DNA of 34,880 bases from a virus. Below the pieces are notes generated by a model, which was not told the origin of the DNA, ran no database searches, and worked only from the letters and a program-made list of their open reading frames with translations. Position numbers and translations under genes: made by a program. Shown in pieces: positions 563-28,683 of the stretch. The stretch is from positions 1 to 34,880 of IMG/VR virus record IMGVR_UViG_3300025141_016477. One strand, given 5' to 3'. Within the stretch, counting starts at the first letter, position 1. Every line of letters starts with the position of its first letter.

Positions 563-563
563 T

Positions 564-1669: not shown

Positions 1670-1680
1670 GGAGATTTATT

Positions 1681-2354: not shown

Positions 2355-2355
2355 T

Positions 2356-8887: not shown

Positions 8888-10093
8888 ATGTCTGTTTTCA
8901 CGGAACATAAAACAATTGCAGATCGTTCAGCCTCTGATCGTCGTAGACATAAGAAGAAAATTGAAAAAGCTATCAAAGATGGTATCCATGATATCGTAGC
9001 TGAAGAATCAATAATCGGACAAGATGGAAAGAAAAAGATTCGCATTCCTGTTCGAGGAATTAAAGAGTATAGATTTGTCTATGGTAATAATGAAAACAAT
9101 AAAAAGGTGGGAAGTGCTCCAGGGTCTGATATTAAGAGAGGCCAAAAAATTGGTGACAATAAAAATAAAGCCAAGGGTAAACCTAATCAACCTGGAAACG
9201 AACCAGGCGAAGAGTTTTATGATGTAGAAATAACATTAGAAGAGCTAGCTCACTACCTTTTTGATGATCTTAGGCTACCCGATCTTGAAAAGAAAGCTCT
9301 AAAAAAGATCATGTCTGAAAAGATCAAAAGAAAAGGGTACAGAAAAGATGGGATAATGCCGCGGCTTGACAAGAAAAAATCTGCCATCGAAAGAATAAAA
9401 AGAAAAAAGGCATCACAACGAAACACGTCTGATGACTCTCATGAGAGTGAGACCTTTCCTTTTCATGAAAATGATCTTGTATATCGACACTATAAACCTT
9501 CAAAAAAAGAATGCTCTAATGCAGCTATATTTTTTGTAATGGATATATCGGGATCTATGACTAAAGAAAAGAAGTTTATTGCACGAAGCTTTTATTTTCT
9601 ACTGTATCATTTCATAAGATCCAAGTACGAACATACAGAAATTATTTTTGTATCACACGATACCTCAGCTTATGAGGTCACCGAGGATCAGTTCTTTTCA
9701 AGGGGGAATAGTGGAGGAACTTTAGTTTCAACCGGTTTAACCATGGTCGATGATATTGTTAACAAGAGATATCACCCAAGTAGTTGGAACATTTATTGTT
9801 TTCAATGTTCAGATGGTGACAATTGGCCAGAAGATACTAAAAAAACAATAGAGTATGCAGAAAAAATCAAGAACTATTCTCAGCTTTTTGGTTATTGTGA
9901 AATAATACCCGGGGCTGGAAAGGAAAATAGCGGTAGCTGGTTTGATGACTCTAGGCTCTCTGTAGTTTATCAACCCTTAGTGGGTAGAAAATTTAAAACT
10001 GTGGGAATTTCAGAAAAAGCTGACATCTGGATAGCATTTCGAGAGCTATTCGGCGGAAAAAAGAAAAAACGAAGATTAATCGCTTCACATTAG
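8888..10093 (+). CDS. yeaH: YeaH/YhbH family protein (UPF0229)
   Basis: A 401-residue protein of the YeaH/YhbH family, slightly shorter than bacterial members. Residues 1-65 give the family start (DRSASDRRRHKKKIEKAIKD). A Lys/Gly/Asn-rich low-complexity linker (about 66-108) is followed by the conserved DVEITLEELAHYLFDDL and a basic helix. From about residue 213 a von Willebrand A-like domain begins, with the metal-site motif MDISGSMT (218-225), then FVSHDT and FQCSDGDNW. In bacteria this protein is encoded with the kinase PrkA and often SpoVR, and acts in stationary-phase, starvation or sporulation programmes; its biochemistry is poorly known. Here the same two partners follow directly, eight and then 51 bases apart. 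Confidence 0.9.
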   Translation: MSVFTEHKTIADRSASDRRRHKKKIEKAIKDGIHDIVAEESIIGQDGKKKIRIPVRGIKEYRFVYGNNENNKKVGSAPGSDIKRGQKIGDNKNKAKGKPNQPGNEPGEEFYDVEITLEELAHYLFDDLRLPDLEKKALKKIMSEKIKRKGYRKDGIMPRLDKKKSAIERIKRKKASQRNTSDDSHESETFPFHENDLVYRHYKPSKKECSNAAIFFVMDISGSMTKEKKFIARSFYFLLYHFIRSKYEHTEIIFVSHDTSAYEVTEDQFFSRGNSGGTLVSTGLTMVDDIVNKRYHPSSWNIYCFQCSDGDNWPEDTKKTIEYAEKIKNYSQLFGYCEIIPGAGKENSGSWFDDSRLSVVYQPLVGRKFKTVGISEKADIWIAFRELFGGKKKKRRLIASH

Positions 10094-10101
10094 GATAAAA
10101 A

Positions 10102-11403
10102 ATGGATTGGGACTTTAAAACACTAGAAGAATGGGACGATAAGATCAGTAGTCTTGCAAAGGAAAGAAATTTAGACTGGTTTCCAATATCTTATGAAGTG
10201 TGTGATTACTATACCATGATAGGTCATATGTCATATCATGGAATGCCCACTCATTACGGTCATTGGTCGTATGGAAAATCATTTGAAAGAACACATCAGA
10301 TGTACAATATGGGAATGGAAGGTCTTCCTTATGAGCTTATTATTAACTCAAATCCTTCTATCGCGTATCTAATGAGAGAAAACCCATTATATCTGCAGGT
10401 TTTAATCATGGCACACTGTGTAGGTCATTCTGATTTTTTTAAAAATAATAGAATGTTTCAGAATACACGGCCTGAGTCTGTTGTTGGTCGAATGAGAAGT
10501 GCCAAAAAGAGAATTCAGTCGTACGTAGAAGATCCTACAATTGGAATAGAAGAGGTTGAAGAAGTATTAGACGCAGCTCATGCCATCTCGTTTCAAACGT
10601 ATCGCTATGGACAAAAAAGACACACACATTCAGACTTGGTGGAAAAATATTCTGCAAAAATAAAAGAAGACGAAGACGAAGAATACATCGATTTTGATAT
10701 TACTAGAGTTCCTTTAGAACCTGATTATGATATTTTGGGTTTTATTGTTGAGCATGGTAAGCTTCCTTCGTGGAAAAAAGACCTCCTTGAAATTGTAAGA
10801 GAAGAAGCAAGATATTTTATCCCTCAAATACAAACAAAGATTATGAATGAAGGATGGGCATCGTATTGGCACTATACACTATGTCATGAACTTGAACTTC
10901 CATCGTCTATGCACTTACCTTTCATTAAGATGCATAATCAAGTGATACGTCCTCATATCGGTGGTTTAAACCCATATCACATGGGATTTGTTATCTTTAA
11001 AGATATCGAAGAACGTTTAGGAATTGAAGAATGCTTTATCGCTAGAGAATCTTGTCATGACGTTGCATTTATAAGACAATATCTTACACATGAATTATGT
11101 GAGAAGTTGGGGCTCTTTTCATTTTCTGAAAAGCGCAAGGCCGGTGTAACGATTGATGAAATTTACGATGAAGAAGGCTGGGAAGTTGTAAAACAGAATT
11201 TAATTTCTAATATTGGTACTAACAGCATACCGGTGATATACGTGGATGAAATAGAAGAGCACGTTCTTGTTTTACGACATGAACATGATGGAAGAGATCT
11301 AGAGCTTGGCCACGCTGAAAATGTTGTTAATCATGTTAATACATTGTGGCCGGCCGGCGCTAAATTATACACAATTCTAGAAGAAGAACTGTGGGAGATC
11401 TAA
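10102..11403 (+). CDS. spoVR: SpoVR family protein
   Basis: A 433-residue SpoVR-family protein, a little shorter than the bacterial proteins. Recognisable family stretches are GMPTHYGHWSYGKSFERT, YELIINSNPSIAYLMREN, MAHCVGHSDFFKN near the first third, then MNEGWASYWHYTLCHEL and GGLNPYHMGFVIFKDI. The many conserved His and Glu residues suggest a metal site, but the family's activity is unknown. It is named for a Bacillus gene needed for spore cortex formation and occurs in many non-spore-formers with PrkA and YeaH. Here it lies between these two, so the whole set was probably acquired as a unit. Confidence 0.92.
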   Translation: MDWDFKTLEEWDDKISSLAKERNLDWFPISYEVCDYYTMIGHMSYHGMPTHYGHWSYGKSFERTHQMYNMGMEGLPYELIINSNPSIAYLMRENPLYLQVLIMAHCVGHSDFFKNNRMFQNTRPESVVGRMRSAKKRIQSYVEDPTIGIEEVEEVLDAAHAISFQTYRYGQKRHTHSDLVEKYSAKIKEDEDEEYIDFDITRVPLEPDYDILGFIVEHGKLPSWKKDLLEIVREEARYFIPQIQTKIMNEGWASYWHYTLCHELELPSSMHLPFIKMHNQVIRPHIGGLNPYHMGFVIFKDIEERLGIEECFIARESCHDVAFIRQYLTHELCEKLGLFSFSEKRKAGVTIDEIYDEEGWEVVKQNLISNIGTNSIPVIYVDEIEEHVLVLRHEHDGRDLELGHAENVVNHVNTLWPAGAKLYTILEEELWEI

Positions 11404-11454
11404 TTAGTTATAGCGCGTGGTGCACATTTTGAAATCGCGGAGTACAATAGAATC

Positions 11455-13389
11455 ATGACTGTAAGAGACGAACTACTAAAAGAAATTGAGAAGCAACGAA
11501 AGAAAAGTGCTTCTAAGAAAAAATTCTCCGGGAATTTCCTAGACTATGTTGAACATATACAGAAAAACCCGGAAGTGGTAAAAACATCACATCAAAGACT
11601 ATACCAATCTATTATGAAGGGGGGAATGGAAAAAATGCCAGACTCTGATCCTCGTAAGCAAAAAGTTTTTGATAATGATAGTGTGAGAATTTACGGCTAT
11701 TTTAAAGAGGAATTCTTTGGAATGGAAAGGGTTCTTGAGAAACTCATGAGTTTCTTAAAATCAGCGGCATTTAAGGGTGAAGAAAGTAAGCAAGTATTAC
11801 TTCTTATGGGACCTGTGGGTGCTGGAAAAAGCGCACTTACCGAACATATTAAAAAGTCTTTAGACGGGGAATCATTTTTTCACCTTAAAGGAGACCCACA
11901 AAGAGGCGAGCCTTTACAGCTAGTTCCAAGAAGTCTAAGAGAAACTTTCTCAAAGAAGTTAGATGTTACAATCGATGGAGATATCAGTCCAGTAGCACGA
12001 TATAAGCTGTTGACAGAATTAGATGGAAAATATGAAGATTTTCCTGTAGTAGAATCTACTTTTTCCCAAAGAGGAAGAAGAGGGGTTGCATCGGTTCCAC
12101 CAATGGATGCAAATAGTCAAGATGTTTCTGTCTTGATTGGCAGTGTTGACATATCTAAGCTAGATCGTTATGCAGAAGATGACCCTAGGGCGCTTTCTCT
12201 CAACGGTGCATTCAACGTAGGTAATCGTGGAATTGTAGAGTTAGTTGAAGTCTTTAAAAATGAGATCGAATTTTTGCATACAATCATTACAGCAACGCAA
12301 GAAAAGAGAATTCCTTCTCCCGGAAAAAGTGATATGCTTCATTTCGATGGTGTTATTTTGGCACACTGCAATGAGTCTGAGTGGAACCGTTTTCAAAGCG
12401 AACATACTAATGAAGCAATCTTGGATCGTGTTGTTAAGATCAATGTTCCTTATTGCCTAGAGTTAAATCAGGAAGTAAAAATTTATAAGAAGATGCTGGC
12501 CCTTTCTGATTTTAATCATCATATTGCTCCTCATACTTTAAAAGTTGCATCAATGTTTAGTATAATGTCTAGATTGCGTCCTTCACAAAAATGTGATCTT
12601 CTTACAAAGATGAAGATATACAATGGTGATGATGTAATTGAAAAAGGTCGAGTTAAGAGAATAGACATTCGAGACTTAAGAGAAGAAGCAAGAGATGAAG
12701 GAATGTCCGGTATTTCTACACGATTTATTGCAAAAACACTTGATGATGCACTTACAAATTCAGAAAAAGATATGATAACACCTGTATCAGTCATAGAATC
12801 TCTTACAAAAAAAGTTAAAGATCAGATAGTTGATGAAGAATTTAAACAAAATTGTTTAGAGCTCATTCAGAAGGTTGTTCGCGAAGAATACTTGAGAATT
12901 CTTGAGACTGAAATTGCTAAGGCATTTGTGAGTGCCTATGAAGAACAAGCACAAAGTCTCTTTGACACTTACCTTGATAATGCTGAAGCATTTACTACAC
13001 ATCAAAGACTCAAAGATCGTGTAACTAAAGAAGAAAGAGCTCCTGATGAGAATTTTATGCGTTCCATCGAAGAACAAATCGGAATCACAGGATCTTCCAA
13101 GGAAGGTTTTAGGAGCGATGTTACAGCTTATATGTTTGCCAAGATGAGAAGAGGCGAAAAAGTCGACTATCAAAGTTACGAGCCCCTCAAAGAAGCAATT
13201 GAAGGATACTTGATAAACTCGGTTAAAGATATGGCTAGAATTGTTACCAAATCTAAGACTAGAGATGAGGAACAACAAAAGAAGCATAGTGATATGATTC
13301 AAACAATGATTGATGAATATGGTTATACAGCAGATAGCGCAGAAGAAATTTTGGCATATGCTTCTAATAATCTTTGGAGAGACAGTTAA
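11455..13389 (+). CDS. prkA: PrkA-type serine protein kinase/AAA protein
   Basis: A 644-residue protein equal in length to typical PrkA/YeaG. The N-terminal part carries the PrkA AAA domain with Walker A GPVGAGKS (119-126), preceded by FFGMERVLEKL. Family-typical segments follow: LLTELDGKYEDFPV, LSLNGAFNVGNRGIVELVEVFKN, then LAHCNESEWNRF and LDRVVKINVPYCLELNQEVKIYKK. The C-terminal third is helical, as in the family's kinase-like region. In bacteria PrkA is a stress or sporulation-linked Ser/Thr kinase or AAA protease-type regulator that works with YeaH and SpoVR. The 51 bases upstream hold a modest ribosome site (CGGAG); no clear promoter. The sequence looks full-length and intact, which argues for function in the virus. 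Confidence 0.93.
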   Translation: MTVRDELLKEIEKQRKKSASKKKFSGNFLDYVEHIQKNPEVVKTSHQRLYQSIMKGGMEKMPDSDPRKQKVFDNDSVRIYGYFKEEFFGMERVLEKLMSFLKSAAFKGEESKQVLLLMGPVGAGKSALTEHIKKSLDGESFFHLKGDPQRGEPLQLVPRSLRETFSKKLDVTIDGDISPVARYKLLTELDGKYEDFPVVESTFSQRGRRGVASVPPMDANSQDVSVLIGSVDISKLDRYAEDDPRALSLNGAFNVGNRGIVELVEVFKNEIEFLHTIITATQEKRIPSPGKSDMLHFDGVILAHCNESEWNRFQSEHTNEAILDRVVKINVPYCLELNQEVKIYKKMLALSDFNHHIAPHTLKVASMFSIMSRLRPSQKCDLLTKMKIYNGDDVIEKGRVKRIDIRDLREEARDEGMSGISTRFIAKTLDDALTNSEKDMITPVSVIESLTKKVKDQIVDEEFKQNCLELIQKVVREEYLRILETEIAKAFVSAYEEQAQSLFDTYLDNAEAFTTHQRLKDRVTKEERAPDENFMRSIEEQIGITGSSKEGFRSDVTAYMFAKMRRGEKVDYQSYEPLKEAIEGYLINSVKDMARIVTKSKTRDEEQQKKHSDMIQTMIDEYGYTADSAEEILAYASNNLWRDS

Positions 13390-13391
13390 TA

Positions 13392-13679
13392 ATGAATACT
13401 GATTTAGGACATCCAGAAGTACTAGTAGGATCTGGTGCTTATCTTTTAGCTAATAATCATTTTGGATTAGGCTTAACACTTTTAATATTAGGTGTGATGG
13501 GTGGCATTTTTAGAGCTGCCCTAAGAGTTCAAAAAAGTCAGCAAGAACTAGAAGCTCAGCAAAAACTTCTCAGTGAAGTAAATGATGCTGGAGAAGAAAT
13601 TGGTTCGGCTATAGTAACTTTGCTAGGAGCTTTTGGAAATGAAAAGAAGAAAAAGGGTGGCGGCGGAGCAATCCACTAA
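13392..13679 (+). CDS. Small membrane protein with coiled-coil tail
   Basis: A 95-residue protein. I start it at the ATG two bases after the PrkA stop; a TTG at 13374 would overlap that gene. Residues 10-45 form one long hydrophobic stretch or hairpin (GAYLLANNHFGLGLTLLILG, then VMGGIF), followed by a charged coiled coil (LRVQKSQQELEAQQKLLSEV) and a Lys/Gly-rich end (EKKKKGGGG). It would sit in the inner membrane with the coiled coil in the cytoplasm. Position directly after PrkA suggests it could anchor or regulate that complex, an inference. Its 3' end overlaps the next gene by 41 bases. Confidence 0.6.
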   Translation: MNTDLGHPEVLVGSGAYLLANNHFGLGLTLLILGVMGGIFRAALRVQKSQQELEAQQKLLSEVNDAGEEIGSAIVTLLGAFGNEKKKKGGGGAIH

Positions 13680-14865
13680 TATTGAGAACCCGGATACTCT
13701 CTATATAGAGGGTTCTTTTATCCAAAAAAGATATCGACAAATGGTCGAAAGACTAGGACCTTTCTTGCAAAAAATGCATGAAGGAAAGCTAGTATTCAAT
13801 TATGGAGAAAAGACATGCCCTACCAAACCAGCAGATCTCTTAAGAGTCCTATCAGAGTGGTCACAGAAGGACTTAGTTGATCTTACCATACGAAACATCA
13901 TAGTTGATACAATCCTTTCATCAGAGAACAAACAGATAGGCTCTGGGGTTATTTGTGCGTTATCTCTCTTAGATGCCTTACATGAAGACACTAAGCTTTT
14001 ATCTAAAAGAGCAGAAGTTAATAATCTTTTTTACTCAATCGATTACATGTTGGGGAAAGGGATTCTTTCAGAGATTGTAAAGAAATCAATTGAAGTAGGG
14101 ACATTAGGTGCTAGTATCTCTATAGATGTGTCCCATAATCGTCATTTTATTATCGAATCAGACACTGCAGTTAAAATTTTAGGATCCATACACCCAGTTT
14201 TCGAAAATCCCCCTACAAAAAAAATAGAAAATCCAGTAATAGTGTGTGTAGATGGAATTATTGAATCTCTGGGGGAAATAGACGGCCTCTTACAAGAAGC
14301 TGCAGAGAATAAGACGAATGTTATTATTTGTGCTTCGGGTTACCACCCAGATGTTGTACACACACTTTACCAAAACTGGAAGGAAAAAAGACTCAACGTT
14401 TTTCCTTTTGCCGTTGCCTACTGGGATCCTAGTCTTAAATTGACCACTCTAGAGGTTTGCAGTAAATTAGGTCTAGATTGTGTTTCACCTGAAACAGGTG
14501 GAGTACTTGCATCAAAAAAATTAGAAAATTTTTCATCAATAAAATCATCTTATTTTTCGAAAAACAATTTGTCATTATGCCTAGATGATGGTGATGAAAT
14601 CTTTCTTCAGATAAAGATCCCGAGCTATCTTGAAAATATGTTGGGAGTGATCGAAGATAGAATTAGAATCGCCGTAAACAATTGTATCTCTATTGCCAAT
14701 TCGGGTGTGGCTAAAGACACATCTATAGAATTACAAGCAAAAAAATTAGGAATCCCTTATCCTGCTGTATCGTTAAAAGCCCATCAAGTGGGAATAAAGA
14801 CAGCAGAAAATTGCAAACTAATGATAGAAAGCTTGGGCGGCGCAGTTATTCCAGAAATCAAATAA
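13639..14865 (+). CDS. Divergent, shortened GroEL-like chaperonin
   Basis: A 408-residue protein (typical GroEL: about 547). The ATG at 13639 follows AGGAG by nine bases. The middle aligns by pattern to the GroEL apical domain: SDTAVKILGSIHPVFENP, ENPVIVCVDGIIESLGEIDG, TNVIICASGYHPDVVHTLYQ, VFPFAVAYWDPS and LGLDCVSPETGG, mirroring the GroEL order helix-strand-helix-strand around its substrate groove. The stretch EDRIRIAVNNCISIANSGV resembles the returning equatorial helix, and QVGIKTAENCKLMIESLGG the helix after it. The ATP-binding GDGTT motif appears replaced (IGSGVICA), and the C-terminal equatorial part with its conserved Asp is absent. So it may be a non-ATPase or cofactor-like derivative. 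This is a by-eye call; structure comparison would settle it. Some large phages encode chaperonins. Confidence 0.5.
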   Translation: MKRRKRVAAEQSTNIENPDTLYIEGSFIQKRYRQMVERLGPFLQKMHEGKLVFNYGEKTCPTKPADLLRVLSEWSQKDLVDLTIRNIIVDTILSSENKQIGSGVICALSLLDALHEDTKLLSKRAEVNNLFYSIDYMLGKGILSEIVKKSIEVGTLGASISIDVSHNRHFIIESDTAVKILGSIHPVFENPPTKKIENPVIVCVDGIIESLGEIDGLLQEAAENKTNVIICASGYHPDVVHTLYQNWKEKRLNVFPFAVAYWDPSLKLTTLEVCSKLGLDCVSPETGGVLASKKLENFSSIKSSYFSKNNLSLCLDDGDEIFLQIKIPSYLENMLGVIEDRIRIAVNNCISIANSGVAKDTSIELQAKKLGIPYPAVSLKAHQVGIKTAENCKLMIESLGGAVIPEIK

Positions 14866-16458: not shown

Positions 16459-17541
16459 ATGAATGAAGAAAATAAAGAAAAAGATGACCTCTACATCAAT
16501 AAAAACACACCCGATGATGAGTTTGATTTTGTAGATGCTTTTGATGACACAGATGACACTGTAGATTCTCAAGCCCTGCCGGAAAATACTGCAGACTCTG
16601 CTATCAATTGTGCTTTCATTGGAGTTGGAGGCGGCGGTGGAAAATTAGCCAAGGCATTTTTAGACGCCGGATTTAATAAGACACTTTTAGTCAACACAAC
16701 TGTTAAAGATCAGCCAGACGGTGTGCCTGAAGATCACTTTCTTCTCGTCCCCGGGGCCGACGGTGTTGGGAAAGATGTAGACCTAGGCAAGAAAATATTA
16801 GAAGAAAACAGCGCGATGGTTGAAGATGCCGTTCGAGCTAGACTAGGTGCACCCGACTGGATTTTTGTCCTGGCCGGTGGTGGTGGTGGAACAGGATCTG
16901 CCAGCCCAGTATTACATGATGCACTTACGCGACACCTTAAGACGGTAGGTGCATCCGGAAAGGTGATTTACGTTGTATCACAGCCTAGCTCACAAGAGCT
17001 CTTAAATACAACAATTGAAAACAATTATCAATCAATAGTATCAGATGTTTCAGATCATCCTCATATTATTATTGATAATGAGCGACAATTACAGCTCTTA
17101 AGAAACAAGGTGGGTATGTTGAATCTATACCCAGTTGCAAATAGGAATTTTGCTAAACTTCTCGCACAAGTATTCAAACTAGCAAATACTCACTCCGATA
17201 TCCAAGCATTTGACTCAAAAGACTTAGAGAAATGTTTGAGTACTAATGGAAGAATCGTGGTGGGAAGCAAAGTAATTAAGGATACATCCCGAAGAGACTT
17301 AGGTGCTGCAGTCCTTCAAGGCTGCATAGCAAACTCACCGTGTCCTCCCCCTAAAAATAGATGTGAAGCTGGAGCGTTAATGCTAGTTGCATCATCTACA
17401 ATGGCGGGAGATCCCTCAGTGAGTAAAAATTTAGAAGCGGCTTTTAGTTATGTTGGAGGTAGAACAAACGCATTATTTTCAGGTGTTTACGTTAGAGACA
17501 GAATTCCTGGACTTATTGCAATTTGCTTGCTAGCTGGATGA
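16459..17541 (+). CDS. FtsZ/tubulin-superfamily GTPase
   Basis: A 360-residue protein. After an acidic N-terminal extension (1-48, many Asp) the sequence follows FtsZ in order: nucleotide loop GVGGGGGK (55-62), LLVNT (76-80), a T3-like loop VPGADGVGKDVDLGKKILEE (97-116), tubulin signature AGGGGGTGSAS (139-149), a long H7 region, the T7 catalytic loop with Asp252 and Asp255 (FDSKDLEKCLS), NGRIVVGS, and a last strand GLIAICLLAG. The usual T7 Asn seems replaced by Ala. The protein ends at the core domain, with no C-terminal linker or tail peptide for partners such as FtsA or ZipA. It would polymerise with GTP; phage tubulins (PhuZ) position viral DNA, but this could also interfere with host FtsZ. 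It follows the tmRNA by 40 bases with a GAGG site. Confidence 0.88.
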   Translation: MNEENKEKDDLYINKNTPDDEFDFVDAFDDTDDTVDSQALPENTADSAINCAFIGVGGGGGKLAKAFLDAGFNKTLLVNTTVKDQPDGVPEDHFLLVPGADGVGKDVDLGKKILEENSAMVEDAVRARLGAPDWIFVLAGGGGGTGSASPVLHDALTRHLKTVGASGKVIYVVSQPSSQELLNTTIENNYQSIVSDVSDHPHIIIDNERQLQLLRNKVGMLNLYPVANRNFAKLLAQVFKLANTHSDIQAFDSKDLEKCLSTNGRIVVGSKVIKDTSRRDLGAAVLQGCIANSPCPPPKNRCEAGALMLVASSTMAGDPSVSKNLEAAFSYVGGRTNALFSGVYVRDRIPGLIAICLLAG

Positions 17542-17808
17542 GGGGTTATACGGTGCAATTGGCTTTGAATCTTTTCGAAGCTTTTTTAAGATTGTTTTTT
17601 CAATCTGGCACACCCGCATCCTTGAAATTCCGTAGTAATCGCCTATCTCCTGTAAGGTTTTTGGACCATCCTGAGCTGCAATTATTGAACAGTTTAAATC
17701 ACGTTTTGAGTTTAAAAAGTGACGACAATCTGATTCACCACAGGGTAAGTTTTTATCCGCAACAGTGTTGTAACATTTTTTTGAATTCGTATCTTTATCA
17801 GTATCCAT
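17530..17808 (-). CDS. Sigma-70 region 4-like DNA-binding protein with Cys cluster
   Basis: A 92-residue protein on the minus strand, between the plus-strand FtsZ-like and PhoH-like genes. Residues 48-80 match sigma-70 region 4: GPKTLQEIGDYYGISRMRVC, then QIEKTILKKLRKD, the recognition helix-turn-helix of sigma factors. Residues 12-40 hold four cysteines (LPCGESDCRHFL plus Cys12 and Cys40) like a group of bacterial region-4 proteins that start with a CxxxxC segment. No region 2, so it is not a complete sigma factor; it could act as a co-regulator of -35-type or late promoters. AGGA lies upstream of the ATG; the stop overlaps the FtsZ-like gene's end by 12 bases. Confidence 0.75.
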   Translation of the reverse strand: MDTDKDTNSKKCYNTVADKNLPCGESDCRHFLNSKRDLNCSIIAAQDGPKTLQEIGDYYGISRMRVCQIEKTILKKLRKDSKPIAPYNPSSS

Positions 17809-17864: not shown

Positions 17865-19163
17865 ATGAGCGATAGAAAGTTATTAGTAATCGATACATCA
17901 GTCCTTCTTTATGACAAATCATCTATACACTCTTTTCCTGGAAATGACGTAATACTTCCCTTAATTGTTCTAGACGAGCTGGATCGTTTTAAAGAGAAGC
18001 CGGGCCTTCTCGGGGAATCTGCACGTTATGTAAATCGATTTCTAGATAACTTAAGAAGTCTAGGAAGATTAGATCAGGGTGTAATGATTGAAGATGATAC
18101 GGGTCAATCTATTACTGTCATGTCTTCAACTCCACAGCTAGACTCTAAAGATCATTTAGACCCTTCCAGAGGGGACAATATGATTATTGCGGCTGCGCTG
18201 GAGCTTAAAAAAACCCACTCTAAAAAAACAGTCAAAGTAATTACAAAAGACATAAACCTTAGAGTGAAATGTGATGCTTTGGGTCTTCAGGCTGAAGACT
18301 ATTATAAAGATTATGTAGAGCTTGAAGACGGCATCTTTAAAGGTGTAAAAGAAATATCCCTAAATGACGATGATATTGACTTGCTTTATTCAGATGGATC
18401 TTGTGAGTATACAGGTAAAATTGATGTACATCCTAACATGTATGTCGTTTGTAAGGGAACTCACCAAAGCAAATCAGCATTAGCTATCTTTAAAGATGAT
18501 CATCTATACACAATTCCAAACAGCAAGGGTTCAGAAACAGACGTTAAACCTAGAAATAAAGAGCAAAAATTTGCACTTCATGCACTTAGATCGGAAGAAA
18601 TTCCGCTAGTAAGTTTGACCGGTCTCGCCGGGTCTGGAAAAACTTTTTTAGCCTTGATGGCCGGAATTGATGCACTTCATTCAAAAAAATATGAGAGAAT
18701 TGTTGTAACTAGAAGTATCCAGCCTGTGGGTAGAGACCTAGGTTATCTCCCCGGGGATTTAAATGAAAAAATGGCACCGTGGATGTCACCCCTCATGGAT
18801 AACTTTAAGCATCACTTTAAAGATAGAGTGTATTTTGAATGTATGATCGATAAGGGTGAAATAGAAATCGCACCCTTAGCATTCATTCGTGGTAGAACTT
18901 TTAATAACAGCTATTTAATTGTTGACGAAGCTCAGAATGCAACAATACATGAGCTTAAGACTATTATAACAAGATTGGGAGAAGGATCAAAAGTCGTATT
19001 AATGGGAGATACAGATCAGATCGACACACCCTATATTGATAAAAGATCCAACGGCTTAGCGATAGTTATTGAAAAGTTTAAAACGAGTGATCTAAGTGCA
19101 CATGTTCACCTATGTCGTGGAGAACGATCTGCTATTGCAACATACGCGAGTAAGGTGCTCTAG
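17865..19163 (+). CDS. phoH: PIN-PhoH ATPase (PhoH2 type)
   Basis: A 432-residue two-domain protein. Residues 1-150 are a PIN RNase domain with acidic sites Asp10 (VIDTS), Glu39 (LDELD), Asp104 (GDNMI) and Asp129 (TKDINL). Residues about 235-432 are a PhoH ATPase: Walker A GLAGSGKT (253-260), TRSIQPVGRDLGYLPGD, Walker B LIVDEAQN (351-358), then LMGDTDQID. PIN-PhoH proteins of bacteria act as ATP-dependent RNA nucleases/helicases. PhoH genes are widespread in marine phages, often used as a diversity marker. The ribosome site is weak. The stop is immediately followed by an inverted repeat covering the next gene's ribosome site. Confidence 0.92.
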   Translation: MSDRKLLVIDTSVLLYDKSSIHSFPGNDVILPLIVLDELDRFKEKPGLLGESARYVNRFLDNLRSLGRLDQGVMIEDDTGQSITVMSSTPQLDSKDHLDPSRGDNMIIAAALELKKTHSKKTVKVITKDINLRVKCDALGLQAEDYYKDYVELEDGIFKGVKEISLNDDDIDLLYSDGSCEYTGKIDVHPNMYVVCKGTHQSKSALAIFKDDHLYTIPNSKGSETDVKPRNKEQKFALHALRSEEIPLVSLTGLAGSGKTFLALMAGIDALHSKKYERIVVTRSIQPVGRDLGYLPGDLNEKMAPWMSPLMDNFKHHFKDRVYFECMIDKGEIEIAPLAFIRGRTFNNSYLIVDEAQNATIHELKTIITRLGEGSKVVLMGDTDQIDTPYIDKRSNGLAIVIEKFKTSDLSAHVHLCRGERSAIATYASKVL

Positions 19164-19920: not shown

Positions 19921-22900
19921 ATGAGTACAAAAGATTTTCAAGCCGGACAAATAAGATCTTCTAGATGGATTGCATCCGGGAGTGATTCAACGCAGCCGGC
20001 GCTTATGATTTATAGCGCATCCGCTGCTTCTGATTATATCGGGGGTGTAGATGCTACGTTATTATCTACAGTCGGAACAGATGTTTTTGTCTTTTTCTCT
20101 GGCAGCAAATCAAGTAGGCCCGGTATACCCGGGGGGCAGGCCCATCATAGAAACAATGTGGCTCTTTTCGGAGGAGACGTAGTAGTTTCCGGAACACTTT
20201 TTGCTGAGCATACTGTTATAGAAGTCGATGGAAATGTGACTGGCTCGATGATGGTATCTGGATCTTTATTTGTTTCACAATCTGCTGATATCATGGAAGG
20301 CTTAAAAGTCAATCTATCTTATGAATCAGGTGATGAAAATACATTTGCTGTGTATAGTGGACGAGGAACAGACCCATCCCTCGAGGTAAGAACCGCTGAT
20401 AACGGTTCTGTTTATATCAATGGCGGTGGAAATGCTGGTATTGATTTTTTGGTCTCCGGAGACTCTTATCGACATCTTCTCTTTATAGATTCATCCGAGG
20501 ACGTTATTGTCGTGGGTGGCGAGGCAGTTGTTACCACAGACTGGGGAAGTGATACGACAGTACTTTTGTCAGGAACAATTGGCTCAAAAGACGGCACATC
20601 AGGCGGAACTACAGTTGTTGCCGGTGATCTTTATGTTTCAGGTACAACTTATCTCCCGTCTTCTACAATTGATATGCATTGTGTTTCTGCCACATACTCG
20701 CCGGCAGGACAACGATGGATTAAAGTTGCATCGGCAACTTCGTCGGATCAGATTTCTTCGGCAACCACATTTCTTATAACTCTTTGCGGAAAACTTGGGC
20801 CGGCCGCGGCTTATCAAGCTTATGTAACAGCAATAGCTAAAAGAGGCTCCGGTGCCGATGGACCAGAAAAATGTTTAGTTGATATTATTAATTCTCCGGA
20901 GTCATCCTCTGGTTGGACTAAAGATCATTTTGCAATTACTTCAGACGCGTCTGCACCTTATGATTATGAATTATGGGTTTACTCACCTGAACAGTACAAT
21001 GATTGCTTTGCCGAAAGAATAGGCGGCCCTTCTCTGACGACTTATACAGTTCCCTGGGAACTTTTAGAAAACCAATCATGGCAGACTAATCCTGTTAGTT
21101 TGGGAGCAACTGTATTTGCAGAATACACAGATAGAACATTCGAAGATGTAATTGCGTATCGAATGTTGGTAATGTCCGGGGCTAGCCCGACGAACCTAAC
21201 TGAAGGCTCGGGTGGGCATGCTTTATTTGAAGTTAGAGGTGATGGATCAACTTCACAAGTACTTATTCTTTCCGGGGCAGGCTCAGCTCAATCAGACCAT
21301 CAATCTTCATATGCAGACTTAGCATTCTTTGTATCTGGTGCAATAGGATCTCGTGGAACTACTCAAAAAGGCACATCGGTATTCGGCGGAGACACTGTTG
21401 TAAGTGGAGCATCACACCACATAGGGCAAGGTGTATATGTCTCTGGTAACGGGTCAACGTCCGGACAAATACGTTTATATAATAATACATCCTTTCCCAC
21501 AATACAAATTTCAGGATCAACTAGCCAGCTTCCACGATTAGCATACAGAGTCGGAGGAGGTACTTCTCCGGAGGCGTCATCTCAAGTATGGCAAATGTAT
21601 ATGTCAAACTCCAACGGGGGCATGCTCTTTACGTCCTTGAATGATGGAGGTAGCAGTCAGTATGTTCTTGTTGATAGAGATAGAGTGTCTAGCCCATCCA
21701 GATACAAGAGTATTCTACACTATTCAGCATCAACTGTCTCAGAAGGACAAAGTTCATTACTATTACTTTCGTCATCAACAGCATCCGGCGGAGATTCTCC
21801 TAATCCTTTAAAATTTACTGACACTAACTTTTGGGTATCCGGGACTGTAGGTTCAAAAAATTCAACAACACACAAGGGGACTGCAGTCTTTGGTGGTGAT
21901 GTTGTTACGTCCGGAACACTTTATGGTGCTCAAGGCACAGGCGTACTAGGTACAGTGGGAGGTGGATCGATACCCACACTTTACATGTTGTCTGATGATG
22001 GTGGTATTGGGATTCGATCTAATGCTAATTTAGAAAGATCAGTCTTTCTCTTAGCCGATGGCGGGACAGACAGTCAAGTTTATATCAAAAATGAAACAGG
22101 CACTGGCACCGGTCACGCCGGCGGGAATGAATCCGGTGGTGGATCAATTCGAATGCACTCAGTTGCCGGCGGTATTGAGATGGACGCTGCCGGAGAAATT
22201 GGAATGACAGCCGGAGCGGCGTTCTATGTTTCTGCAGGTGCTTCCTCACAAATTACTACTGACGCAGGTACTCTAACTCTAGAGGGTCAAACAGGAGTAA
22301 TCATTCAGGAGGCTGGAACAGCTGTTATTACTATTAGTGACGCCAAAGATGTCACTGTACAAACATCTGATGATGGTTCTTATGGATCTGCTGATTTTAG
22401 AGTCAACGGTTACACACAGCTAGAGGGCGGTATTGGTACCGGTGGTGGACATGTTGTTATTAATGAACCCGGAGGCGCATACGATTTTAGAGTAGAAAGT
22501 GATACTCACCCTCACATGCTCTTTGTAGATGCATCCGAAAATGCGATCTTAATCGGTGACAAAGCGTCCTTTGACAGCAACACGCCAAGAGATTTAGTCC
22601 ATATAAGACAGGGAGACTATGAAAAATCTGCCGCCCTGAGAATAGAGCATTTGATGGATAATGGTGAGACGTTCACCAACTCTGGCAGTATTATATTCTC
22701 TAGTCTTAATTCCACCGACGGCACCACCAGAACAAACTTGGCTGAGGTTGGTGTAGAGCCGCTGGGAAATCTTGTGCTTAGTGCTTCCAAGCAAGACACA
22801 GACATTATTTTCAGGGTAAATGAAGGCGGTACAACAAAAGAATTGCTCAGATTGTCTGGTTCGACAGTTTTAATTCTATCTGGTGGCGCAACTACTTCAG

Positions 22901-25900
22901 TTGATGAATCGGCCGGGCTTGATGTTGCATTTTATGTTTCAGGTTCAACAGGAAACAAAGACTCAGCAACTCATCGAGGAACATCGATCTTTGGCGGAGA
23001 TGTTGTGATCTCTGGCACACTTTACGATGGCGCTGGGGCTCTTGTCGGTGGCGGTGGGTGGTCAGATGATGGAACTGTTGTTCGACTAACAACTTCTACA
23101 GACAATGTCGGAATCGGTACAGACTTTACATCTCCGGCTATTGTTAAGGCCAAACGTCCTAATTTCCAGGTTAACGGCTCTACAATCTTGGGCAGTGATG
23201 AATATGGAGCGGCCTATGCTCCGTCAGTCTATGGTAGTGGTTCTCTGAATGTAAGATGGCTTCCGGAAGATGAGAGTAAAGGCCGCGGCACTAGACTATT
23301 TGTAGAAAGAGGAGGCGCTGCATCCTCCGGGTCTCTCATCTTTAAGCAGGCAAGTACATGGGCATCGGTGAATGGTGCCGGTCTTATTCAGGAACATGTG
23401 GTAGGCCCAACAGGCGATGACTTTGTCATTTTTAATAGCGGCACATCAGGTATAGTATTTATAAAACCGGGGACGGCCGGCGGCGAGTCTTCCGAGACAT
23501 TTCGAACTCTTGCAGCTGAAGCCGGCACAGTCTTTAATGAAAACGCCCAGAATTATGACTTTAGAGTTGAAACATCAGATAGAACTCACGCCCTATATGC
23601 TGATGCTTCTACAAATCAAGTCTTTATTTTGTCCGGAAGTGGCGGAGCTGGAGCTGAAGTTAATGAAGCTGCCTACACAGACTTGGCATTCTTTGTTTCC
23701 GGAACAGTCGGCTCTAGAGGAACTTCTACAAAAGGAACTGCTGTTTTCGGAGGAGATGTCTTTATCTCAGGAACATTGGCTACAGCAGGCGGAGTCATTG
23801 GCGGCGGTGGCGGCGGCGATGCTGTTGGTTGGTTTACAGGATCAGGAGGGCCTCCGGGTGAAGGCGAAGGTGCAGGGTGGATATCAACGACTGGGTCTTT
23901 ATCAGTTTCCGGAAGCAGTCTGAATGTTTCTCAGTATATTAGACATATTGGAAATACAACTACTTCTATACAGTTTTCGGATGATGAAATAAGATTCAAT
24001 GGTGCCAATTCTGACGGTACTACGAACCAGCTACTTCAATTAAATAGTACACCCTCAGCTGGACAACCGGCCATTATGTTTAATGGCAATGCTGATGATT
24101 TTGATTTTGGTGTCTTGGGAAGAACTACTGGAAAATTCAGCTTATTGATATCAGGTACAGCAGGAAGCTCTAAATACCCGAACGCCATGGCAAACGATAC
24201 CAACGTTTGGATCAGTGGATCACAAGTACTTATACTTTCAGGTGGATCAGGTCAGTCTGTAGATGAATCAGTAGGTAATGATGTTACGTTCTATGTGTCT
24301 GGTTCTAGAAATAAGATGGGTAGTTATGGAACTTCAGTCTTTGGTGGTGATCTCTTTACCAGCGGAGTTTTATACGCGTATGGGTCTGATTCTGGACTCC
24401 CAGCAGCAGCAATAGGAAATGTCGAAGGCGCGCCCGGATTAGGAAATGATGCTCATATATGGATATCAGGATCCGCAGGATCTAGAGGAACTTCAACTAG
24501 AGGCACAGCGATCTTTGGTGGAGACGTATTCATTAGTGGTGGCGTTGTTATAGGAAAACCACCAAGTGCAGCAGATGATGGCTCTTTACAAGATTTTATT
24601 GTTAACTCGAAAGATTCTCAAGGAATCATTTATGTCAATGGTGCACAAAACTATATTCAGTTCCAGACAAACGATAGCTCAGGCCCATTATTTCCCGGGC
24701 AGGACACATTCTTTCATGTATCAGGAACTGTTGGCGGAAAATCATCAGGCAGTGGTGTCGCTGTCTTTGATGGAGACGTTGTTATCTCAGGAACCCTCCA
24801 TGGAGGCTCTCCGCTCAAGATAGGCACAGATGCTCACTTGGTAGCAGCAAATGGAGCTACTCAATATCTATACTTTGGTGCATCAGCAGCTGGTACAGGA
24901 TATGGCCTACGATCCAACGCAGGTACCCTTCAGTTTAAAAACAATGGAGGGGCATGGGCCGACCTAGATTCCGGCGGGGGCGGAAGTCTATCTGTACAGT
25001 CTGGAAGTACTAGCGTTGGCAGTGTTACTACCCTGAATCTGGATATGCTGGGTTCTGTTATGTCTTTGGGTGGAGGGGCAGTCGCTCTCACTGGTACAAT
25101 CGGCGCTGCAGAAGACGGCGCATATAGCGACGGATTATTTACTTCGTTTTCTACCTCAACACCAATTGGAACTGCAATTGATAAAATTAACGAAGTTCTC
25201 AAATATTTGTCTCCATCTCCGTCACCTGACCTGGATGATGTAAACTCTTTAAAGACAGGAGTTACAACCCTTCTGGCATTTGGATCTTCAAATACTGTTA
25301 CGAATTACACTAGTGTCGCGGACTCCGCGGGTGTGGGTGCAGCTGTGGATGTTGCTGGGTCTTATGCAGTACTCACATCAAGTAACAACATTCGATTGGC
25401 AACATTTAACGGATCTACACATATAACCGGTGTGTTAAATGCAGATATAACAGCTGACACTTATTCAAATGAAATAATAAATTACTCGGGAAGTACATTT
25501 GGTGATGCAGAAACAGGTACACTTACACTATCTGTTAACGGATCAACAATTAAAACAGTCAATCTGACTGATGCTGCTGTTGGAGCTGGTGCACCCGGCG
25601 CGGGAACAGGAAATCAACTATCTAATAATGGTACCGGATTCTTTGCACTGTCTCAAACAGGCAGCGCGTATCAATCCAATGGTCAGGCATTTGGATTATT
25701 TCAAAATAGAACTGGAAAATTTGCAGTCGCTCCAATTGATCAGAGAAATGGATGGAACTATGCTCGAGTAACTCATACAGTCGGATCTAAGACAAATACA
25801 ACAAACTATATTGAGTGGGTAAATGACGCCTCAGGCAGTGCTCTCCAGGTTCATGATGCACGATTCGATAGTGGTTCAACAGCAGCTATCAACCTAACGG

Positions 25901-28683
25901 GATCAGTATCGTTATCGGGTGTCAAGTATGCAGTTTCTGCTGGAGGCACATACAAAGCAACAATTAATAATTTCTATGATCATGTCTATGCCCTAAACCC
26001 AATTGTATTCGGCAATACTAACTGTACAATTGCAACTCAAACTGTTCCGGATGTCGCCGGTTCAGGCGCAGATACAAAAATAATTGCTCTAACTGGCTCC
26101 TTTGAAACATCAGAAACTGAGATGTTGGGAAGTACTATTGGATCAAATATTAGTTTATCCCATCCACTCAAGACAGCTATTTCAACTAGCGGATCTATTA
26201 CCTCACCGAGATTCTTAATATTCAGTGCTAGCAATGCATCAACTGCGCTGGCTGAAACGTTCGATCGGGAAATTTATCGTCTTATAAGTGGAACGTATCC
26301 TAATCAGTCTACTACAGGTTCTTCTGCATGGGATTCGACCATCCATATGTCTGCATCGAATGTCGGCTATGTAGACGGTTTATCCTTCTACAATAATAGA
26401 CTTTATTCTCCGCTCAATACATTAAACGGAGGAAACTTTTTAAGCACTGTTAACGGTGGGTCTTACTTTGGACTAGGATGTTCCTACGATAATAATCCAA
26501 ATTATAGTACACTTCCGGATGGAACTAGGACATTTTTTAGAGCATTTGTTAACTCTACAGGAAATCCAGTTAGAGACTTTGATATCACAATCACCGGCGG
26601 TTCGTCAACTATTGTACCTCTATCTACTGCCCTTAATTCCGGAAGAGTGAGAGTTCATGCAAAAATTCCTGGGTCGACCGGTTTTCTGGACTTAGGAAGT
26701 TCATTTACATTCATGACTGCTTCTGAATATTCTGGAGGAAGAATTGGAAGTCTAGATGCTTCGATTGATGGTGGTGGGGCAGTAAACCACTTCTCATTTG
26801 GAATAATGGCTGTACCCAACAATGGACACGTAATCGTCAAGATTGAGGCTGACGATGATTGGACAGGTTATCTCGAGGGAATGACAGTTAACTTCCCTGC
26901 TGTAGGAATTACAGCTGTTGCTGAAGCGCCGAACGTAAGAGACGTTAGTTGTAATGATACCGGTGTGGACGCCAACTTAAGCTTTGGTTCATCTCATAGC
27001 GTTGGAAGCTATACTAACGTAGGAACAACAGCAGGTCTATCTGCGGTTGATTGCAATGGTCTATATCAAGTATCTTCTAATTCCGGTAATCTAAGAAGAG
27101 GTATTTTTGCCGGTGGGACTGTGATTGATGGAATTGTTAATGATGCCACAACTGCTGATGGAAATGCTTTTCCGGCCAATGCATTTGGTAGCGCTATTAC
27201 AGGTACACTTTCTCTTGAAGTTAATGGTAGTACTCTAGCTTCTAGAGATTTATACGATTTTACACTAGGAACCGGTGGGAATACAACAATCGTTAATGGA
27301 AACGGTTCCGGGTTTACTTCTGTAAGTGAAGCCACTACAGGACAGGATGGGAGTAGCCTCCCAGACTATCGTAGGTGGTATAGAACAGCAAATTGGACAG
27401 TTGCAACATCAGATCAACGTCAGGGATGGAACTACGCTAAAGTAATTCATTCAATTACAGGAACCAACTACACATCAAATTATGTTGAATGGGTTAATGA
27501 TGATGATTCTAACTCTATGGGTGTTGACAGTCCGGTTTTCGAAACTTACTTCGGCGATAACTTATACTACTATCAAAGTGGTGTAAAGTACTTCATAGAT
27601 CCTACTGGATCATTTGAGTATCGAGTTACCCATGGATATTCTAATATCTTCTCTGATAGCTCTAGTGCGCTTTCTTTAACTAGCTTATCTAACTTAACGA
27701 CTACGAGAATGGAAGCTTCAGGATCTGGAATTACAGATACTGGAGCTAATGCTACTTCTATGGCAATGCCTGATCTCTTAACAGCAGTATCAGACTCTCA
27801 AACTCTTCCTCTTTTTGTATCAGGAAACGTAACATTTGGACGATCTGAGTCGCTCCCAGGCACATGGGGTAGCACAGGATACTCTGCGACAGCCAGAGGG
27901 ACTGCTGTTCATCCAATAAATGGTACAGTTAATTCTAGTACAGTTACAAAAACTAATTTCTTAGTTTTCAGCGCATCACTTACAGACGGCGTTCATACTT
28001 CCAATATAAATACAGCAGAAGTTTTTGGACGAGAAGATTTCCGTCTTATAAGCGGAACTTATCCTAACCAATCGACTACTGGATCTTCCGGATGGGTATC
28101 AACTAAATCACTAGAAGCTGGCGGCGCGGGATATAATACTGGACTCTTAATTTATAATAGTCGTGTTTGTTCTCCTAGCGGAAGTAATCTCCCTAATCAT
28201 GGAAACTTTAAGGATACTGCAGACGGTGGTACTCTTACATCTGCTGCTAGTAATGTTGATTATACAACACTTACAAATTCCACGAGAGACTACTATAGAG
28301 CGTTCAAGAATAATACATCCAGTGATCAAGCTAATGTCTCTATAACACTTTATGGTGATGCAACATTTGTTCCTAGAACCGGTGCCGGGGCAGATACGTT
28401 AGGCGCAAATAAAAATTTCCACGTCGACGTAAAAATACCTGGAAAGACTGGGTGGATGGACGCAGCAAAAGCAGCCTCTGGCGGAATATCAGATGGCGAT
28501 GGCTCTCTTGCAGGAGATAGAGATGGAAATGTTGACGGAAGTGGGGCAACAAATACTGCTGACTTCCAAACTCAGTTTATTGCAGGTACAGCTTCAGGTG
28601 GCGGACCCGAGCATTTTATGTTAAGGATCGTTGCTGATAAGCAATGGACAGGTTATGTCAGTAAAATAGTTGTGTCATACTAG
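19921..28683 (+). CDS. 2920-residue repeat protein, likely a giant tail fibre or adhesin
   Basis: Encodes 2920 residues without cytoplasmic-enzyme motifs and without a signal peptide, translated behind GAGGA. The N-terminal 50 residues could be an attachment region. Residues 54-1629 carry nine copies of the VSGxxGS...FGGDVxxSGTL module, often preceded by QVLILSGG. Within it is DNVGIGT (about residues 1060-1066), the sequence type found before fibre modules in many phage tail proteins. Residues 1784-2325 and 2353-2920 are two copies of one large beta-rich domain, sharing RLISGTYPNQSTTGSS and WTGY. Gly, Ser and Thr dominate, as in beta-helical fibres. A structure this long could span the host capsule. 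No peptidase S74 chaperone end is seen, since the protein ends with the second copy. Confidence 0.8.
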   Translation: MSTKDFQAGQIRSSRWIASGSDSTQPALMIYSASAASDYIGGVDATLLSTVGTDVFVFFSGSKSSRPGIPGGQAHHRNNVALFGGDVVVSGTLFAEHTVIEVDGNVTGSMMVSGSLFVSQSADIMEGLKVNLSYESGDENTFAVYSGRGTDPSLEVRTADNGSVYINGGGNAGIDFLVSGDSYRHLLFIDSSEDVIVVGGEAVVTTDWGSDTTVLLSGTIGSKDGTSGGTTVVAGDLYVSGTTYLPSSTIDMHCVSATYSPAGQRWIKVASATSSDQISSATTFLITLCGKLGPAAAYQAYVTAIAKRGSGADGPEKCLVDIINSPESSSGWTKDHFAITSDASAPYDYELWVYSPEQYNDCFAERIGGPSLTTYTVPWELLENQSWQTNPVSLGATVFAEYTDRTFEDVIAYRMLVMSGASPTNLTEGSGGHALFEVRGDGSTSQVLILSGAGSAQSDHQSSYADLAFFVSGAIGSRGTTQKGTSVFGGDTVVSGASHHIGQGVYVSGNGSTSGQIRLYNNTSFPTIQISGSTSQLPRLAYRVGGGTSPEASSQVWQMYMSNSNGGMLFTSLNDGGSSQYVLVDRDRVSSPSRYKSILHYSASTVSEGQSSLLLLSSSTASGGDSPNPLKFTDTNFWVSGTVGSKNSTTHKGTAVFGGDVVTSGTLYGAQGTGVLGTVGGGSIPTLYMLSDDGGIGIRSNANLERSVFLLADGGTDSQVYIKNETGTGTGHAGGNESGGGSIRMHSVAGGIEMDAAGEIGMTAGAAFYVSAGASSQITTDAGTLTLEGQTGVIIQEAGTAVITISDAKDVTVQTSDDGSYGSADFRVNGYTQLEGGIGTGGGHVVINEPGGAYDFRVESDTHPHMLFVDASENAILIGDKASFDSNTPRDLVHIRQGDYEKSAALRIEHLMDNGETFTNSGSIIFSSLNSTDGTTRTNLAEVGVEPLGNLVLSASKQDTDIIFRVNEGGTTKELLRLSGSTVLILSGGATTSVDESAGLDVAFYVSGSTGNKDSATHRGTSIFGGDVVISGTLYDGAGALVGGGGWSDDGTVVRLTTSTDNVGIGTDFTSPAIVKAKRPNFQVNGSTILGSDEYGAAYAPSVYGSGSLNVRWLPEDESKGRGTRLFVERGGAASSGSLIFKQASTWASVNGAGLIQEHVVGPTGDDFVIFNSGTSGIVFIKPGTAGGESSETFRTLAAEAGTVFNENAQNYDFRVETSDRTHALYADASTNQVFILSGSGGAGAEVNEAAYTDLAFFVSGTVGSRGTSTKGTAVFGGDVFISGTLATAGGVIGGGGGGDAVGWFTGSGGPPGEGEGAGWISTTGSLSVSGSSLNVSQYIRHIGNTTTSIQFSDDEIRFNGANSDGTTNQLLQLNSTPSAGQPAIMFNGNADDFDFGVLGRTTGKFSLLISGTAGSSKYPNAMANDTNVWISGSQVLILSGGSGQSVDESVGNDVTFYVSGSRNKMGSYGTSVFGGDLFTSGVLYAYGSDSGLPAAAIGNVEGAPGLGNDAHIWISGSAGSRGTSTRGTAIFGGDVFISGGVVIGKPPSAADDGSLQDFIVNSKDSQGIIYVNGAQNYIQFQTNDSSGPLFPGQDTFFHVSGTVGGKSSGSGVAVFDGDVVISGTLHGGSPLKIGTDAHLVAANGATQYLYFGASAAGTGYGLRSNAGTLQFKNNGGAWADLDSGGGGSLSVQSGSTSVGSVTTLNLDMLGSVMSLGGGAVALTGTIGAAEDGAYSDGLFTSFSTSTPIGTAIDKINEVLKYLSPSPSPDLDDVNSLKTGVTTLLAFGSSNTVTNYTSVADSAGVGAAVDVAGSYAVLTSSNNIRLATFNGSTHITGVLNADITADTYSNEIINYSGSTFGDAETGTLTLSVNGSTIKTVNLTDAAVGAGAPGAGTGNQLSNNGTGFFALSQTGSAYQSNGQAFGLFQNRTGKFAVAPIDQRNGWNYARVTHTVGSKTNTTNYIEWVNDASGSALQVHDARFDSGSTAAINLTGSVSLSGVKYAVSAGGTYKATINNFYDHVYALNPIVFGNTNCTIATQTVPDVAGSGADTKIIALTGSFETSETEMLGSTIGSNISLSHPLKTAISTSGSITSPRFLIFSASNASTALAETFDREIYRLISGTYPNQSTTGSSAWDSTIHMSASNVGYVDGLSFYNNRLYSPLNTLNGGNFLSTVNGGSYFGLGCSYDNNPNYSTLPDGTRTFFRAFVNSTGNPVRDFDITITGGSSTIVPLSTALNSGRVRVHAKIPGSTGFLDLGSSFTFMTASEYSGGRIGSLDASIDGGGAVNHFSFGIMAVPNNGHVIVKIEADDDWTGYLEGMTVNFPAVGITAVAEAPNVRDVSCNDTGVDANLSFGSSHSVGSYTNVGTTAGLSAVDCNGLYQVSSNSGNLRRGIFAGGTVIDGIVNDATTADGNAFPANAFGSAITGTLSLEVNGSTLASRDLYDFTLGTGGNTTIVNGNGSGFTSVSEATTGQDGSSLPDYRRWYRTANWTVATSDQRQGWNYAKVIHSITGTNYTSNYVEWVNDDDSNSMGVDSPVFETYFGDNLYYYQSGVKYFIDPTGSFEYRVTHGYSNIFSDSSSALSLTSLSNLTTTRMEASGSGITDTGANATSMAMPDLLTAVSDSQTLPLFVSGNVTFGRSESLPGTWGSTGYSATARGTAVHPINGTVNSSTVTKTNFLVFSASLTDGVHTSNINTAEVFGREDFRLISGTYPNQSTTGSSGWVSTKSLEAGGAGYNTGLLIYNSRVCSPSGSNLPNHGNFKDTADGGTLTSAASNVDYTTLTNSTRDYYRAFKNNTSSDQANVSITLYGDATFVPRTGAGADTLGANKNFHVDVKIPGKTGWMDAAKAASGGISDGDGSLAGDRDGNVDGSGATNTADFQTQFIAGTASGGGPEHFMLRIVADKQWTGYVSKIVVSY
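20080..24807 (+). repeat. Nine VSG/FGGDV modules in the giant protein
   Basis: Nine spaced copies of a motif with the core [DxxFxVSGxxGSxxT...GTxVFGGDVxxSGTL]. The FGGDV-type parts lie near 20167, 20620, 21382, 21890, 22993, 23749, 24339, 24514 and 24766. The copies have variable spacing and different third bases, so they are old protein repeats rather than recent DNA duplications. Further copies occur in the two fibres downstream near 29780, 30176, 30566 and 31743. Confidence 0.75.
25270..26895 (+). repeat. C-terminal tandem domain, copy A
   Basis: First of two related domains (542 residues) at the end of the giant protein, starting LLAFGSSNTVTNYTSV and ending WTGYLEGMTVNF. It shares order and motifs with copy B: NGWNYARVTHTVG, TNYIEWVND, and RLISGTYPNQSTTGSS. 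Over that last 16-residue stretch the two DNAs differ at eight codons, all synonymous, which shows an old duplication kept under protein-level selection. Confidence 0.8.
26977..28680 (+). repeat. C-terminal tandem domain, copy B
   Basis: Second copy (568 residues), starting LSFGSSHSVGSYTNV and ending WTGYVSKIVVSY, the end of the protein. It matches copy A by QGWNYAKVIHSITG, SNYVEWVND and the RLISGTYPNQ stretch, but differs in loops (for example TVATSDQ against AVAPIDQ). These loops would be the likely contact surfaces if the domain binds receptors. Confidence 0.8.

Follow-up and report, generated by a model that had tools for sequence, protein, structure and literature searches.

What kind of tubulin-like protein is encoded in this viral DNA, and what might the phage use it for? 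The question is raised by a 360-aa reading frame in the window, by which we mean the whole stretch analysed, a linear IMG/VR virus record of 34,880 bases. A sequence-only reading had seen in the product an FtsZ/tubulin-like GTPase that might be either a new branch of viral tubulin or a dominant interferer with host division, and had placed it close to FtsZ rather than to the phage protein PhuZ. Phage tubulins have been described in two subgroups, TubZ and PhuZ (PMC7950403). A comparison of jumbo phages distinguished two tubulin representatives and found tubulin to correlate with HSP60 (PMC7824862), and tubulin was reported from the PhiKZ-type group in a survey of marine jumbo phages (PMC9123017).

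The frame (Table 1) opens with ATG behind an upstream in-frame stop and is preceded by AGGCGAGG, which resembles a ribosome-binding site. The product matches FtsZ entries among PDB sequences (E about 1e-10), NCBIfam TIGR00065 ftsZ (E 4.8e-11; 42.6 bits, equivalog cut-off 295.2), Pfam Tubulin (E 7e-6; 26.8 bits, cut-off 33) and, weakly, PHROG 4733 PhuZ (E 1e-4; 22 bits). These matches, together with strong purifying selection among the relatives (pairwise dN/dS 0.04-0.06 in the pairs where it could be estimated), rule out a chance reading frame. Routine annotation would nevertheless tend to overlook the gene because the standard libraries recognize its product weakly, with Pfam and NCBIfam scores below the curated cut-offs. 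A defence role was also considered, and a PADLOC search with the protein returned no match.

Relatives are encoded on at least 171 IMG/VR contigs (171 confirmed stretches in the widest of three scans), and clustering at 95% identity left 93 representatives, on which the statements of conservation below are based. Four further relatives come from binned genomes under the labels Flavobacteriales or Halobacteriovorax; these are probably phage contigs. The nucleotide loops, the GGGTGS signature and the T7 aspartates at residues 252 and 255, all picked out by the sequence-only reading, are real and are kept throughout the representatives, among which NTT, A227-N228, R265 and G269 are invariant as well. 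In FtsZ and tubulin, which are established to assemble head to tail and to hydrolyse GTP where two subunits meet, the T7 loop completes the GTPase site of the neighbouring subunit. Both halves of this longitudinal contact, the pocket for the nucleotide and the T7 loop, are strictly conserved across the 93 representatives, which makes GTP-driven polymerization of the phage protein highly probable: it would bind GTP and form dynamic head-to-tail protofilaments in which each subunit's T7 aspartates finish the active site of its neighbour.

Table 1. Features of the tubulin gene and its surroundings in the window
Feature	Positions	Strand	Basis or conservation
Phage tubulin/FtsZ-superfamily gene, 360 aa (P0001)	16459..17541	+	ORF, profile, PDB sequence, AF2 and fold matches
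Variable acidic N-terminal tail, residues 1-19, probably disordered	16459..16515	+	pLDDT <50 at residues 1-18
Motif D-D/E-F-D-F-V-x-x-Y, residues 20-28 (F28 here)	16516..16542	+	Conservation in 93 representatives
T1 nucleotide loop G55-x-GGGGGK62	16621..16644	+	93/93 invariant save G59 (A in 7)
T3 loop region P98-GADGVGKDVDL-G110	16750..16788	+	G102, K105, G110 invariant
T4 tubulin signature GGGTGS, residues 142-147	16882..16899	+	93/93
T5 region P176..E180	16984..16998	+	93/93
T6 region D206-N207-E208	17074..17082	+	N207, E208 93/93; D206 87/93
T7 catalytic loop D252-S-K-D255	17212..17223	+	D252, D255 93/93; aligns with FtsZ D-x-x-D
Phage tmRNA (ssrA), tag ANDNVEYNYALAA	16077..16418	+	ARAGORN; Rfam RF00023, 118 bits
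Small Cys-containing protein, sigma-70 region 4-like HTH	17530..17808	-	PF04545 E 1e-11; homologues
PIN-PhoH protein, conserved downstream neighbour	17865..19163	+	PF02562 and PF13638
YhbH (DUF444)-SpoVR-PrkA cluster, complete	8888-13389	+	Conserved in about 10-15 related loci

The fold was examined by structure prediction. AlphaFold2 (AF2) run with the 93 sequences gave a model of pLDDT 90.8 and pTM 0.87 that falls below pLDDT 50 at residues 1-18 only; with six close sequences the model was poor (pLDDT 52). Foldseek matched the 93-sequence model to FtsZ, CetZ and TubZ at E about 1e-20 and TM 0.6-0.7. VIA-align gave Z scores of 26-32 over about 265-307 residues, headed by Bacillus cereus TubZ (32.2) and CetZ2 (32.1), with FtsZ at 28.7 and identities of 17-24%. 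PhuZ is not among the best 50 PDB rows of that comparison, which is no evidence of differing folds. In the BFVD fold search the best two viral entries come from metagenomic phages and bear FtsZ or cell-division names: A0A6J5RW92 of an uncultured Caudovirales phage (‘FtsZ Cell division GTPase’, E 1e-23) and A0A8S5UFG9 of Myoviridae sp. ctcyQ27 (E 5e-18). Because of their 17-20% identity, they are not members of the family by sequence. PhuZ-like proteins rank next at TM about 0.5. The model is thus a full tubulin fold that is about equally close to TubZ, CetZ and FtsZ, and it is practically certain that the 360-aa protein belongs to the tubulin/FtsZ family and fold.

Its place within the superfamily was examined with profiles and phylogeny. 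Against a profile of the family, phage G gp138 reaches 60 bits, plasmid TubZ-like proteins 44-52, a CetZ fragment 38 and cellular FtsZ 18-39, and PhuZ is absent from the match list. Since phage G gp138 and the TubZ-like proteins rank highest, the family is not a member of FtsZ. In a maximum-likelihood tree it forms one branch (100/100), with FtsZ (100/99), PhuZ (100/100) and TubZ-like proteins (95/90) on separate branches; these are long and the deep order is unsure, yet the family lies inside none of the three. The TubZ-like sample was drawn from other plasmids and does not include the classical type III plasmid TubZ, the c-st phage TubZ or the Bacillus virulence-plasmid TubZ, and CetZ is represented by a single fragment on a long branch. 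The fold is confirmed and the branch has full support and stands apart from the sampled FtsZ, PhuZ and TubZ-like proteins, so that the suggestion of a new branch of viral tubulin has held up. The claim of closeness to FtsZ rather than PhuZ survives in part: the family profile indeed leaves PhuZ unlisted, but FtsZ, like CetZ, comes after gp138 and the TubZ-like proteins.

The family shares with FtsZ the fold, the T1-T7 loops, GGGTGS and the D-x-x-D form of the T7 loop, but the TIGR00065 score is a fraction of the cut-off and the family stands outside the FtsZ branch. FtsZ furthermore has a C-terminal linker and conserved peptide, and since the 93 representatives have neither, the FtsZ-like ending that had been proposed was not found. 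An FtsZ-like core without the partner-binding C-terminal peptide would fit a protein that joins or titrates host FtsZ and so blocks septation. Identity to FtsZ is only about 20%, however, the residues for the protein's own assembly are invariant and many relatives have the gene in the head operon, while the FtsZ inhibitors so far known from phages are small proteins with no relation to it. The idea of a dominant interferer with host division finds no support in these results, and we regard it as very unlikely, the least probable of the alternatives considered here.

Like PhuZ, the protein is a tubulin-superfamily GTPase of large phages, and the BFVD and PHROG matches attest to some resemblance. 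The PhuZ of PhiKZ matches PF22334 (TubZ_C_2) at 128 bits, whereas P0001 and 20 relatives match PF00091 only; the C-terminal domain and C-terminal tail of PhuZ are missing and there is an N-terminal arm instead. The two also occupy separate branches of the tree, PhuZ belonging to PhiKZ-like, nucleus-forming phages and the family to T4-like phages without detectable chimallin. As to TubZ and its kin, the family profile ranks gp138 of phage G, a phage with a tmRNA of its own, first among outside proteins, and TubZ tops the structural matches, but identity is 23% over half the protein, the branches are separate, tubS-like repeats were absent beside the gene in the four loci searched and the family has no C-terminal tail. 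CetZ, which serves archaeal cell shape, resembles the family in fold and in a full-length profile match to 3zid that includes the last strand, but is only about 20-24% identical and sits on its own long branch. The best reading is that phage tubulins comprise a third family, separate from both PhuZ and TubZ. No description of it was found in the open-access literature, the only literature searched, and it is apparently undescribed; such a class would have gone unnoticed because its scores fall below the standard family cut-offs.

The two ends of the protein set the family apart. The sequence-only reading had reported that the C-terminal tail is missing and that 48 acidic residues stand at the start, and both points are confirmed. 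All 93 representatives end 0-7 residues past the last core residue in the last strand, and none has a C-terminal tail. Residues 1-48 of the window's protein contain 17 D/E against 3 K/R. Across the representatives, a mostly acidic stretch of 0-128 residues precedes a short motif in which F22 (89/93), F24 (92/93) and Y/F28 (89/93) are conserved and which in 92 of 93 keeps a fixed spacing of 32-33 residues to the T1 glycines that follow; the acidic extension is therefore a variable arm that closes with a fixed motif. An extra start of the type MAS(S/T)xKxS occurs in about 40 of the 93 and is absent from the window's protein. In one relative's locus (L035, 7260-7580) a truncated 106-aa copy of the N-terminal part, with a MASSVKS start and a DDDFDFVEAY motif, lies directly before the full copy. 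FtsZ, TubZ and PhuZ use their C-terminal tails for partners or filament contacts, and the N-terminal arm with its fixed motif would be the obvious replacement for the absent tail. The flexible acidic arm with the D-D/E-F-D-F-V-x-x-Y motif would then probably hold a partner.

Gene position gives some indication of what that partner might be. In 42 of 101 distinct loci the tubulin gene lies within a T4-type head operon, in three different slots: between portal-c4-c12-c13 and the prohead protease (13 loci), before the scaffold-like and major capsid genes (5 loci), or between the major capsid gene and those for neck, head closure, sheath stabiliser and sheath (24 loci). Mapped on the family tree, head-operon and other placements require at least nine changes, and by their immediate neighbours about 40% of the distinct loci fall outside both the head-operon and the PhoH context. 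The phages are large, with gene-bearing contigs of up to 284 kb, and 11 long contigs each carry just one copy of the gene. A T4-type major capsid gene is present in 13 of 16 long contigs with the tubulin gene, including two (G002 and G016) that share the window's gene context; no capsid gene was found in the window itself, so that its T4-like set is known from relatives. A related capsid gene occurs on 11 further contigs, and 10 of these, one of them of 273 kb, do not carry the tubulin gene. It is for this reason accessory, and a universal core gene of these phages is rejected. A phage-encoded ribosomal protein bS21 is found in the head operon near the tubulin gene (L083, 10089-10295, and homologues).

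In the window and its closest relatives the gene lies outside the head operon, beside the tmRNA, PhoH, PrkA-SpoVR-YhbH and tail-fibre genes. The order in the window is YhbH (DUF444), SpoVR, PrkA, a small protein, a GroEL-like protein, small genes, the tmRNA and tubulin, followed by the convergent HTH protein gene, PhoH and the tail-fibre-like genes. The tmRNA, which the sequence-only reading had missed, ends 41 nt before the tubulin start codon. A tmRNA in the same direction and ending no more than 600 nt upstream occurs at 27 of 101 distinct loci, none of them a head-operon locus. Among long contigs with the tubulin gene, 15 of 16 have a tmRNA above cut-off, compared with one of six tested contigs without it (one-sided Fisher p about 0.001). 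The contigs share ancestry, differ in length and may be incomplete, which leaves an association of tmRNA and tubulin gene suggestive only. A fixed operon of the two is rejected, as none of the 42 head-operon loci shows the adjacency and in one contig (G001) the tmRNA lies about 93 kb off.

PhoH lies within 5 kb of the tubulin gene at 26 of 101 loci. The HTH protein gene is a conserved convergent neighbour in 15 loci, in several of which it partly overlaps the end of the tubulin gene. A small HTH protein next to a tubulin gene recalls TubZ-like partition, in which the filament would segregate a plasmid-like or pseudolysogenic phage genome, and both the profile ranking of phage G gp138 and plasmid TubZ-like proteins and the leading Z score of B. 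cereus TubZ fit this. The HTH gene, however, is convergent and was seen only in the PhoH context, a tubS-like iteron array was absent near the gene in the four loci searched, and the head operon is an odd place for a partition gene; partition is accordingly very doubtful.

To our knowledge, PhuZ has been studied almost only together with the chimallin nucleus. Chimallin (PF25677) was found in none of the 16 long contigs, under a search that recovered the PhiKZ positive control; a diverged shell or incomplete contigs could hide one. This bears on the possibility that the filaments centre or spread the replicating phage DNA mass, rather than proheads, as PhuZ does. Membership of the same superfamily, the large genomes and the PhuZ precedent (PMC7950403) speak for it, but PhuZ works with the chimallin nucleus, the tree separates the family from PhuZ and no tie to replication genes was seen. 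DNA positioning is thus unlikely, if less so than partition.

Because the gene recurs in the head operon, and in different slots, a late role with proheads, the portal or an assembly site is suggested, and a role in virion assembly or transport has a little less than an even chance of being correct. Against it count the placement outside the head operon in the window and its closest relatives, the roughly 40% of loci in neither context, the accessory nature of the gene and the lack of late-promoter matches above chance. The adjoining capsid, scaffold, protease and neck genes could also mark the protein as a component of the virion or prohead, an assembly factor or internal protein in which the tubulin fold acts as a GTP switch without long filaments. 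The invariant T7 aspartates imply stacking, however, and we know of no precedent for a tubulin fold in this position, so that a virion or prohead component is decidedly unlikely.

In the explanation that we prefer, the partner would most likely be a component of the virion assembly pathway, such as the prohead, the portal or a membrane assembly site, and late in infection the filament would serve to place or move proheads or genomes in large T4-like phages without a detectable chimallin nucleus. Capsids travel along PhuZ filaments to the nucleus of PhuZ phages, and the proposed transport therefore has a precedent, though in nucleus phages (PMC13282480). A bolder reading, with a probability of roughly 0.3, is a third class of phage tubulin whose filaments hold or carry proheads in T4-like phages lacking a nucleus, with the N-terminal motif as the hook.

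A third family on at least 171 viral contigs, T4-like, without detectable chimallin and often in the head operon, would amount to a viral tubulin cytoskeleton that is not bound to a nucleus. That large T4-like phages carry the gene, often among head genes, suggests that a cytoskeleton of the phage's own is in use even where no ‘phage nucleus’ is formed. If the filaments do hold or carry proheads, capsid transport on viral tubulin would extend beyond the phage nucleus and perhaps not depend on it. Whether proheads are moved or anchored on filaments in large T4-like myoviruses becomes a testable question, and the inverted layout, with an N-terminal partner motif and no C-terminal tail, lends itself to testing which features of the tail a tubulin-like polymer requires.

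Regulatory signals in the window were unremarkable: the T4 late-promoter octamer TATAAATA has four matches, about as expected by chance and none by the tubulin gene, and searches for sigma-70 promoters and terminators gave results at chance level. YhbH-SpoVR-PrkA is a bacterial stress and sporulation kinase system; matches to SpoVR in the phage collection are limited to a few huge metagenomic and Thermus phages. The 410-aa protein at 13633-14865 (+), conserved in 20 related loci, has weak similarity to GroEL (NF038369, E 3e-4) and looks like a reduced or diverged chaperonin, a loose echo of the tubulin-HSP60 correlation (PMC7824862). A ClpP/prohead-protease-like serine protease is encoded at 6165-6815 (+), and with the tmRNA, whose tag ends in ALAA, it could form a ribosome-rescue and degradation route run by the phage. 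Three very large tail-fibre-like proteins of 2920, 759 and 1011 aa (19921-28683, 28776-31055 and 31541-34576) carry repeats of the type SGS-GSRGT-GTAVFGGDVVVSG. Many otherwise unrelated proteins begin with a shared helix, M(K/R)ITKRQLRRIIKE(E/A), both in the window (191-2763 and 4270-4575) and in other loci (L006, 3885-4310; L074, 9647-10633; L024, 3659-4534); this could be a common targeting tag, for instance one that directs proteins into the prohead as the capsid targeting sequence of T4 does.
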